A stretch of DNA of 64,000 bases. Origin: Candidatus Methylomirabilis sp. (lineage in GTDB: Bacteria > Methylomirabilota > Methylomirabilia > Methylomirabilales > Methylomirabilaceae). The DNA lies in contig NZ_JAQUOY010000007.1 of assembly GCF_028716865.1 (NCBI RefSeq), positions 1 through 64,000 on the forward strand, in the 5' to 3' direction. Each line of letters opens with the position of its first letter. Within the stretch, counting starts at the first letter, position 1. Shown one piece after another: positions 59,646 to 63,963 of this stretch. The position numbers were made by a program, and so were the translations under genes. The notes under the pieces were generated by a model. That model saw nothing but the letters and a program-made list of their open reading frames with translations. It had not been told where the DNA came from and did no database searches.

Positions 59646-61148
59646 GTGAAAGTCCTGTTGGTGCATCCAAGTTCCTTGATGTATGCTGAGATCTTCCTCC
59701 GGCTTGAGCCGCTGGGGCTGGAGCGGGTGGCTCAGGCCGCCAGAATGGCGGGCCACGAGGTCAGGCTCTTTGACCTTCAGGTCTTTCACCGTCAGGACTA
59801 CCTGCAAGAGCTCCGCGACTTTCACCCGCAGACCGTTGGCTTTTCGCTGAACTTTTTAGCCAATCTTCCGGAGGTGGTGGAACTGGCAAAGGAGACCAAA
59901 CGCCTCCTCCCCACCTGCTTTGTCTTTGTCGGAGGCCATAGCGCGTCCTTTATCCCGCAGGAGCTTCTCGATCATGCGGAGGGCGCTATTGACTGCATCG
60001 TGCGCGGAGAAGGGGAGCCGATCATGCCGTCCCTGCTGGATGCCATCCTGGATGGAGGACTCGAAACGCTTCCAGGGGTGGTGACAGCCCACGGCGTTGG
60101 CCCCCCGCCGCTGATGCTCCACGACTTGGACCGCACGTTGCCGGCGCGAGACCTTGCCCGCAGACGGCACAAATACTTTATCGGGGTCCTGGATCCCTGT
60201 GCCTCGATTGAGTTTACCCGCGGCTGCCCCTGGGACTGCTCGTTTTGCAGCGCGTGGACCTTTTACGGTCGAAGCTACCGCAAGGTCTCTCCCGAGGTGA
60301 TAGGGGAGGATCTGGCCAGGATGCAGGAGCCCAATGCCTTCTTAGTCGACGATGTGGCCTTCATCCATCCGGAGGACGGGATGGCGATCGGCCGGGAGAT
60401 CGAGCGTCGGGGGATCCGCAAGCAGTATTACCTGGAGACCCGGTGTGATGTGTTGCTCCGCAATCAGGAGGTCTTTGCCTACTGGAAGCGTCTCGGGCTT
60501 CGGTACATGTTCCTCGGCCTGGAGGCCCTCGACGAGGAAGGGTTGAAGGCGATTCGGAAGCGGGCCACGCCCAGCGAGAACTTTCAGGCCCTGGAGGTGG
60601 CGCGGAGGCTGGGATTTACCGTGGCCCTCAACATCATCGCCGATTCGGGATGGGACGAAGAGAGGTTTCGAATCGTTCGCGAGTGGGCCGCCGGTGTCCC
60701 CGAGATCGTCCACCTGACCGTGAATACCCCATACCCCGGGACGGAGACCTGGCACACAGAGTCGAGGAAGCTGACCTCCCTCGACTACCGGCTGTTCGAC
60801 GTCCAACATGCCGTCCTGCCGACGACGCTTCCTCTGAAGCAGTTCTATGAAGAGCTGGTCAAGACCCAGGCGGTCTTGAATCGCAAGCACCTGGGCTGGG
60901 CCGCGGTCCGGGGGACCTTCTCCACCGCCTCCAGCTTGCTTCTACAGGGTCAGACGAACTTCGTTCGGATGCTCTGGAAGTTCCCGCGAGTCTACAATCC
61001 GGAGCGGCAGTACGGTGACCACTTTAAAGAGATGACGTATGCGTTGACCCCGCCGCCGGATAAGCAGGCTGTCAAGCCGACGCAGGCCAAGCTCTTCGTT
61101 CATGCTCCAGCGGCCGCCGGGCAGCGAACGGCACAGGCTGAGGGGTGA
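59646..61148 (+). CDS. hpnR: hopanoid C-3 methylase (B12-binding radical SAM)
   Basis: A 500-residue enzyme that methylates hopanoids at C-3 with SAM and cobalamin. The start MKVLLVHPSSLMYAEIFLRLEPLGLERVA and the B12-binding domain are followed by the radical SAM cluster motif Cys194-x3-Cys198-x2-Cys201 (EFTRGCPWDCSFCSAWTFYGRSYRKVSPEV). This agrees strongly with HpnR by family memory; other B12-radical SAM enzymes share only the general fold. GGAGGAG precedes the GTG at 59646. Methanotrophs, including NC10, are known to make 3-methylhopanoids. Confidence 0.83.
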   Translation: MKVLLVHPSSLMYAEIFLRLEPLGLERVAQAARMAGHEVRLFDLQVFHRQDYLQELRDFHPQTVGFSLNFLANLPEVVELAKETKRLLPTCFVFVGGHSASFIPQELLDHAEGAIDCIVRGEGEPIMPSLLDAILDGGLETLPGVVTAHGVGPPPLMLHDLDRTLPARDLARRRHKYFIGVLDPCASIEFTRGCPWDCSFCSAWTFYGRSYRKVSPEVIGEDLARMQEPNAFLVDDVAFIHPEDGMAIGREIERRGIRKQYYLETRCDVLLRNQEVFAYWKRLGLRYMFLGLEALDEEGLKAIRKRATPSENFQALEVARRLGFTVALNIIADSGWDEERFRIVREWAAGVPEIVHLTVNTPYPGTETWHTESRKLTSLDYRLFDVQHAVLPTTLPLKQFYEELVKTQAVLNRKHLGWAAVRGTFSTASSLLLQGQTNFVRMLWKFPRVYNPERQYGDHFKEMTYALTPPPDKQAVKPTQAKLFVHAPAAAGQRTAQAEG

Positions 61149-61202
61149 ACAAGAGGTTGCAAGACAGGGTTTCAACAGGTTAATGAGCCTGTCCAGCAAA
61201 CC

Positions 61203-61291
61203 CCCGTTCATGCTTCGACGGGCTCAGCACGAACGGGAAAAGGTCAATGTATTCAATACCCATTCCGTTCACCCTGAGCGTGTCGAAGGGT
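61203..61291. repeat. dispersed inverted repeat TTCGAC...GTCGAA
   Basis: The left arm CGTTCATGCTTCGACGGGCT..CACGAACGGG pairs with the right arm CCGTTCACCCTGAGCGTGTCGAAGGG. This is a common dispersed intergenic repeat in environmental genomes. A partial copy lies near 63830 (GAGCCTGTCGAAGCGC...CAGGCTC). Confidence 0.72.
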
Positions 61292-61335
61292 CCATGAGAG
61301 TTTGCAGGATAGGCTCTAATGAGGAGGAATAGCAC

Positions 61336-62568: not shown

Positions 62569-63201
62569 CTATTTCTTCTTCTTCCACGTTCCGTCGGATT
62601 CGGTGCGCCGCTTCAGGCTCAACAGCGCGTTCGACAAGTCTTTTTTAATCATCATATCTTCCACGAATCTGGGGATAAACATGCCGCTGTCCAAGCTCGT
62701 TGTATATCGAAGCATAGTCCTACCATGGCCGTACGGGAGAAACTCCCAGGTACCGAACGTCTCCGCGATGTCGTGTTTCCTCGATTTATCCAGCGTCCAG
62801 CTCACTGTTTGCTGCTCAGGTTTGAAAATCAGATCGATCGTATAAACGATCACGCCAAGCGGAACGTGAACCGTCTCGGTAACCTTCATGGTGCCTTGGG
62901 TTTTTTCAAGGACCTCAACCTTCTCAAGCCGCGGCATAAATTCGCTGAACGTATGATAGTTCAACATGACCGCCCACACGGCCTCTGGTGGCCTGTTGAT
63001 GACGCAGTAGGCTTTGATTCTGGCGCTGCTCGTGCCGTCCTCAGCGGGATGGTCTTTTGCCTTCAGCACCACGCCGCCCTTTTCCATCCTGATTAATTCA
63101 CCGGCCGTAAGTCCGCTGGTCGCGGACTCACCGGCCCCGAAAGAGGCCGTCGGAAGCAGGAATACGAACGCGGCAAATACGAAGGGGATGACCTTGGCCA
63201 T
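62569..63201 (-). CDS. exported SRPBCC (START/polyketide-cyclase-like) protein
   Basis: A 210-residue protein with a signal peptide (residues 1-21, ending SFGA) and one SRPBCC helix-grip domain (AYCVINRPPEAVWAVMLNYHTFSEFMPRLEKVEVLEK... LGVIVYTIDLIFKPEQQTVSWTLDKSRKHDIAETFGTWEFLPYGHGRTMLRYTTSLDSG). Such domains bind hydrophobic ligands such as lipids or quinones. I choose the ATG at 63201. It lies 32 bases after the thioredoxin-like selenoprotein gene, probably one transcript. Confidence 0.83.
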   Translation of the reverse strand: MAKVIPFVFAAFVFLLPTASFGAGESATSGLTAGELIRMEKGGVVLKAKDHPAEDGTSSARIKAYCVINRPPEAVWAVMLNYHTFSEFMPRLEKVEVLEKTQGTMKVTETVHVPLGVIVYTIDLIFKPEQQTVSWTLDKSRKHDIAETFGTWEFLPYGHGRTMLRYTTSLDSGMFIPRFVEDMMIKKDLSNALLSLKRRTESDGTWKKKK

Positions 63202-63233
63202 ATGTGGCACGTCAAAGAGCCTCCAGGGAGCGT

Positions 63234-63581
63234 CTAGCGAAGCAATTGCTCGTAGGTCGCCGAGTCAAAGCCGACCATGAGCGTGCGACCCTTCCGGAGG
63301 GTCGGGGCTCGCAGGTTTCCGGTCGGTCCCAGCAGGAGCGCCAGGAGTTGCGCCCTGTCCGGCTTGTCTTTCCGCAGGTCAACATAGATAAGCTTCTGCC
63401 CTTTCGTTGCGTAGATCTCGTCTACCTCTCGGACCAGTGCGAGCGCTTCCTTGTCCTTCAGGGTCTTTTTCTTTGCATCCACCTCTAACGCAATTTCGAT
63501 ACGATGTTTCGCAAGAAACTCTTGCGACTTGGCGCAGCTCTTTCACCCGGGGCGGTGGTACCTCCAATCGATTCGTCCCAT
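63234..63581 (-). CDS. thioredoxin/ArsC-like selenoprotein with UxxC active site (recoded TGA)
   Basis: Translated through one TGA (63543-63545) as selenocysteine, the gene gives 115 residues: MGRIDWRYHRPG-Sec13-KSC16-AKSQEFLAKHRIEIALE..., then VDAKKKTLKDKEALALVREVD, RAQLLALLLGPTGNLRAPTLRKGRTLMVGFDSATYEQLLR. Both sides of the TGA read as one thioredoxin/ArsC-like domain, with Sec taking the first Cys of a CxxC. The ATG at 63581 has GGAGGAG six bases upstream. A standard caller would start at the internal GTG (63482) and lose the active site. It should act as a thiol-disulfide or peroxide-type redox protein; substrate unknown. It requires SelA/B/C/D elsewhere. Confidence 0.82.
63509..63527 (-). 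promoter_or_regulatory. candidate bacterial SECIS stem-loop
   Basis: On the coding strand TCGCAAGA-GTT-TCTTGCGA: a perfect 8-bp stem with a GUU triloop. It begins 15 bases after the TGA and its loop lies 23 bases after it, within the distance expected for bacterial SECIS elements. A G and a U stand in the apical loop, as SelB recognition requires in E. coli. Confidence 0.75.
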
Positions 63582-63963
63582 TGAGATCTCCTCCATTATG
63601 CCAGCACGGTACGTACAGACGGTCCAGGCCGCGCACTCACAGGTCTCGCTGAGAGGGTGCTTACCTAACAGCGGCTCTGGGTTCACCTGACCATCGCTTT
63701 GATTTCCACCCCCCATCTTGTCGGATACCCGAATTGTGTGCAAGGAGAAAGTGCTCAACTTCCGACCGAGGGGCAAGCGAAGCCATAGATGCTGAGCTAT
63801 CAACTCCCGGCATGAAGAAGAAATAATAGATGAGCCTGTCGAAGCGCAATAAGGAATCTGCGGGGCAGGCTCAGATAGCTTTGATAAAGGACTTGCGTAT
63901 TTGCGAGCCATTGTGTAATTTCATCACTTAAGTAATCTGACGTCAACCCCTACTGAGGTCCGT
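63582..63963. other. gene-free interval before the last gene
   Basis: Nothing coding is supported. A run of possible minus-strand codons (63661-63849) has no motif or ribosome binding site. Near 63830-63880 a partial GAGCCTGTCGAAG...CAGGCTC repeat occurs, related to the one at 61203. The selenoprotein promoter must lie here but I cannot single it out. Confidence 0.45.

Follow-up and report, generated by a model that had tools for sequence, protein, structure and literature searches.

A putative bacterial SECIS element in an ArsC/Spx-fold selenoprotein gene of an NC10 genome

The window analyzed here (64,000 nucleotides of a Candidatus Methylomirabilis sp. contig, NZ_JAQUOY010000007.1) carries, on its minus strand, a reading frame interrupted by a TGA codon and, shortly past that codon, a perfect hairpin. 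This raises the question of whether the hairpin is a bacterial SECIS (bSECIS) element, which would allow the TGA to be read as selenocysteine (Sec), or a by-product of the encoded peptide. From sequence comparison, we consider that the hairpin is very probably the bSECIS element of an ArsC/Spx-fold selenoprotein gene (family NF041106) in this NC10 (Methylomirabilis-type) genome.

The selenoprotein gene and its product

The coding sequence, with the TGA read as Sec, spans positions 63234 to 63581 of the minus strand, as delimited by the match to NF041106, a Shine-Dalgarno-like site, and the N termini of the relatives, and it ends with a TAG stop codon (63236 to 63234). The ATG at 63581 is the likely start and is preferred to an alternative in-frame ATG further upstream, at 63596, because a Shine-Dalgarno-like GGAGGAG (63588 to 63594, minus strand; its role is presumed from the sequence) lies 6 nt upstream of it and because the relatives mostly start with M(A/G)xVDW. 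The read-through frame counts 120 residues, or 115 from the likelier start. On the evidence of the alignment and of the relatives, the in-frame TGA (63543 to 63545, minus strand) is the Sec codon for the first residue of a UxxC motif (UKSC), and this Sec is aligned to the first Cys of the CxxC motif of Spx.

The NCBIfam family NF041106, "ArsC family (seleno)protein," is matched along its full profile (1 to 107 of 107), with 143.3 bits against a cut-off of 85 and with the TGA falling where the family has Cys, while the match of the protein to Pfam ArsC (25.3 versus 24 bits) indicates distant ArsC-fold similarity only. The AlphaFold2 model (mean pLDDT of 92.8) places the Sec immediately ahead of helix 1 (residues 19 to 30), and the product would be a thioredoxin-fold protein of about 115 residues whose UxxC redox motif opens that helix. 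Judging only from the motif and the fold, it is most likely a thiol/selenol oxidoreductase. The modeled fold appears to be shared with Spx/MgsR and ArsC, which are thioredoxin-fold proteins with a CxxC motif; however, the top PDB matches of the model, which are Spx structures, reach TM-scores of only ~0.5, and the protein scores 38 bits against the cut-off of 75.05 of TIGR01617 (Spx/MgsR regulator).

The protein family is already catalogued. PMC13188914 lists NF041106 as the selenoprotein "Arsenate reductase-like protein, UxxC," citing its reference 61 for it, and the 2008 ocean survey (PMC2398784) had already reported "Arsenate reductase 2" (cd03032), likewise with UxxC, which we infer to be the same family. 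The full-length match above the curated cut-off, the UxxC motif, and the Sec/Cys pairs among relatives are all common to the window protein and to NF041106, and nothing sets the former apart; the window gene is a well-supported ordinary instance of the family.

The next downstream gene, for an SRPBCC/polyketide_cyc2-like protein (62569 to 63210, minus strand), begins 23 nt past the selenoprotein stop codon. A conserved gene neighborhood was sought as a hint of function, but in the relatives neither the SRPBCC gene nor the membrane genes seen in the window lie beside the selenoprotein gene. Elsewhere in the window, we noticed a gene for the hopanoid C-3 methylase HpnR (59646 to 61148; 880 bits, cut-off of 650) and, by eye, intergenic palindromic repeat copies (GTTCRTGCTGAGCCTGTCGAAG-like) beside genes, at 61195 to 61310 and around 63830.

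Geometry of the hairpin and its fit to the published model

On the minus strand, the TGA is followed by 15 nt and then by TCGCAAGA-GTT-TCTTGCGA (63527 to 63509). The 5' arm (63520 to 63527) is delimited by sequence, RNA folding, and covariation; the apical loop GTT (63517 to 63519) lies 23 nt past the TGA; and the 3' arm (63509 to 63516), delimited by sequence and codon usage, holds the constrained Leu codon CTT. The initial annotation had described a perfect 8-bp stem with a GTT loop, 23 bases from the TGA, and both the stem, with eight of eight Watson-Crick pairs around a 3-nt loop, and the distance proved exact. Alternatively, the apex can be drawn as a pentaloop on 7 bp, the GU being that of an A-G-U-U-U pentaloop pattern. 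When 48 nt were folded, the same hairpin occurred in both the minimum free energy (MFE) and the centroid structures (-13.6 kcal/mol; z of -2.1).

As PMC13188914 (Fig 2A) restates it, the Zhang and Gladyshev model of the bSECIS element calls for an apical loop of 3 to 9 nt on an upper stem of 4 to 16 bp, a G within the first two loop positions followed mostly by G or U, a spacing of 16 to 37 nt between the UGA and the apical loop, and an MFE of -7.5 kcal/mol or lower. The window hairpin lies within all four constraints, with its loop and stem sizes, its GUU loop, its 23-nt spacing, and the -9.3 kcal/mol obtained when its 19 nt are folded alone; the SECIS reading first drawn from spacing and loop composition agrees with the published model and is supported by the relatives. 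The bSECIS element of Escherichia coli fdhF is a long hairpin; in comparison, that of the window shows no obvious bulged nucleotide in its upper stem, and its lower helix is short and variable.

As a lone sequence, the window hairpin is suggestive, and it is the relatives that make its identity as a bSECIS element secure. Perfect hairpins with 8-bp stems and 3-nt loops occur three times in the window, versus zero to four times in base-shuffled copies. At least 8 Watson-Crick pairs in bSECIS geometry follow 5 of the 2158 TGA triplets of the window, a number that rises to 58 (2.7%) if G-U pairs are allowed, and a stem of at least 4 bp with a loop G in range follows 65% of them. When codons were redrawn from window usage without changing the protein, a stem of at least 8 bp with a loop G in the 16-to-37 range arose in 0.95% of cases. 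For the window gene alone, the MFE did not differ significantly from that of synonymous shuffles (P = 0.18), because the MFE blends in alternative folds. Since minimal geometry is so common, the original contention that the fit held independently of the protein argument was overstated, and comparison is decisive.

Conservation and codon constraint among relatives

We scanned 60 related genomes and found NF041106 above the cut-off in 28, all of which present exactly one in-frame TGA, at the same codon; the nearest named relatives are Candidatus Methylomirabilis/NC10 genomes. One scan of species genomes yielded 80 loci (Methylomirabilota, Acidobacteria, Planctomycetota, and others), and a Planctomycetota sample of 392 genomes gave matches above the cut-off in 80, most of which were retrieved. 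After removal of identical genes, the first sample consisted of 86 Sec and 6 Cys genes. The hairpin was present at an offset of 22 to 23 in all 86 distinct Sec genes, versus 21.8 expected from synonymous choice, and in none of the 6 Cys genes; in the wider sample, it was present in 123 of 154 distinct Sec genes and in 0 of 16 Cys homologues. These counts are of phylogenetically related sequences and not of independent events. Retention of the hairpin by Cys homologues, which the initial annotation had named as a finding that would speak against its reading, was thus not observed. The core conserved across relatives is a stem of 6 to 7 bp (GCAAGR...YCUUGC plus an outer C-G pair), so that the 8-bp stem stands for the window gene and not for the family: the eighth pair, U-A, hinges on a local Ser codon, at the place of which most relatives have ACG.

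It could be argued that the hairpin is a coding by-product without any role as RNA, the conserved peptide Q-E/G-F-L-A happening to be encoded by a palindrome-like sequence; indeed, synonymous random coding alone reproduces the canonical hairpin at a rate of about 25% per Sec gene. We consider this explanation very improbable, given not only the unbroken presence of the hairpin in the 86 Sec genes but also the constraint on the codons themselves. In particular, 84 of 85 genes use CTT for Leu28, which is encoded in the 3' arm, versus a 7.7% share of CTT among the other Leu codons of the same genes, and all 24 genes with a GC3 above 0.85 use it as well. Codon entropy is 0.09 bits at L28, whereas L95 and L106, which are just as conserved, reach about 1.95 bits. 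The compensatory stem changes that had been proposed as a check also occur. Triloop-type hairpins of the near clade are closed by A-U in 28 sequences and by G-C in 15 (pair 23-27), a swap that ties a Glu-to-Gly change to the change of the Phe codon from TTT to TTC. Other clades retain the hairpin with different residues: in the tetraloop type of the Planctomycetota (e.g., GCCCAGG-AGUU-CCUGGGC, GGCGAUG-AGUU-CAUCGCC, and UGCGGAU-AGUU-AUCUGCA), five of the seven stem pairs show both-sided changes, 86.9% of cells are paired versus 22 to 50% when the stem is slid, and none of 500 shuffles attained the observed covariation score (0.406, versus 0.159 for shuffled data). Furthermore, the Cys forms drop the hairpin, usually together with the residues encoding it (KTVAFLAE, KTAAFLEE, and KKMDAFLE). 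Even where QGFLA was retained, in the Cys form L136, synonymous drift removed the loop G and one stem pair (GGG became GGC and CTT became CTC, giving GCAAGG-CUU-CCUCGC); L136 comes from a genome without SelB. The Cys homologues, together with the constrained codons, thus lead us to reject coding constraint as the only origin.

An ordinary stop codon or a sequencing error, with the gene being two short open reading frames or a pseudogene, would agree with the fact that translation table 11 yields only a fragment (63234 to 63482) for the distal part. This is less probable still, since the same codon is TGA in the 28 relatives above the cut-off and in 154 distinct genes from the wider sample, protein conservation among relatives runs past the TGA to the C terminus, and the genome has a complete Sec machinery, with SelA, SelB, SelD, and tRNA-Sec all above their cut-offs. 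Of these, SelD carries an in-frame TGA of its own (GAGUACK). As a separate observation, a second bSECIS-like hairpin, GGCCCAG-GUG-CUGGGCC, the loop of which starts with GU, occurs 33 nt past the TGA of that SelD gene (L048, contig C3 of genome G000).

Across genomes, all 40 of the Sec genomes tested have SelB, versus 2 of 10 Cys-only genomes, and among genomes with a readable Sec/Cys state, SelA was found in 16 of 17 with Sec (the exception being the metagenome-assembled genome L079) and in 3 of 6 with Cys. The Cys form and Sec machinery occur together in five genomes (SelA in L070, L078, and L097; SelB in G255 and G270), and the hairpin is absent there, so that its loss tracks the codon and not the loss of the machinery. 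A role as transcription terminator, attenuator, or recombination site, which a perfect inverted repeat might suggest, is just as remote as a misread stop codon, given that no T-run follows the hairpin, that it sits within a conserved reading frame, that its presence follows Sec versus Cys and the presence of SelB, and that an Rfam search around it, of little power for so short a hairpin, returned no family match.

The comparisons thus show a conserved RNA hairpin that lies at fixed spacing, is under selection, and is tied to Sec. If the hairpin acts as a bSECIS element, the GU-containing mRNA loop, held on a stem of 6 to 8 bp 23 nt past the UGA, would be bound by the C-terminal domain of SelB, which would bring Sec-tRNA(UCA), and the UGA would then be read as Sec rather than as a stop; these steps follow by analogy from the known mechanism of SelB.

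A divergent Planctomycetota clade and the meaning of the signal

Retention with Sec and loss with Cys, a further bSECIS criterion, describes the family except for the 31 of 154 Sec genes that have no canonical loop-GU hairpin, all in the wider Planctomycetota sample (L156, L160-L162, L166-L171, L173, L177-L178, L182-L183, L189-L194, L197-L199, L201, L203, L205, L208-L209, and L213-L214). Sec homologues without any hairpin had also been named at the outset as evidence against the SECIS reading; the canonical form is indeed missing here, but these genes appear to have another hairpin. They are of the TSCKRxDAFLEGRDVT type (e.g., L190, L183, L167, and L192) and mostly show a hairpin that is longer, is often bulged, and bears its pyrimidine-rich loop about 24 to 31 nt past the TGA, as in L190 (GCGUUCCG-AC-GCCUUC-CUU-GAAGGC-CGGGACGU). 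Their degree of structure exceeds expectation, with a mean synonymous-shuffle z of -1.69, versus -0.61 for the control part of the same genes and -1.16 for the canonical genes, and SelB was found in all 30 divergent-group genomes tested. RNAalifold gave no consensus on the ungapped alignment of this group, and a hand-written bulged hairpin paired 61.5% of cells versus 37 to 52% when slid, which is suggestive only. It is possible to hypothesize, tentatively and with slightly less than even confidence, that this clade kept the TGA and SelB and swapped the loop-GU hairpin for a distinct class of bSECIS element, SelB having presumably changed to match. If this were true, the insertion signal would have changed kind within one orthologous selenoprotein family.

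Two further observations concern the surroundings of the family. A sister group that scores below the cut-off of NF041106 (L030, at 553 to 858, L031, and L215), of the EGU-PTCVEVREFL type, shares the TGA and has a hairpin, the apex of which in L030 and L031 reads GG-AGUU-CC. Genome G165 appears to hold both Sec (TGA) and TGA-free copies of the family (L190 and L145, on contigs C5 and C12).

By comparative evidence, the analysis confirms that an NC10 methane oxidizer encodes a selenoprotein together with the signal for Sec insertion. Moreover, it presents a clean case in which an RNA signal dictates codons and even residues, with QEFLA and the CTT Leu codon being kept only while Sec is kept, and we suggest that the family could serve as a natural set for studies of the coevolution of SECIS elements and SelB.
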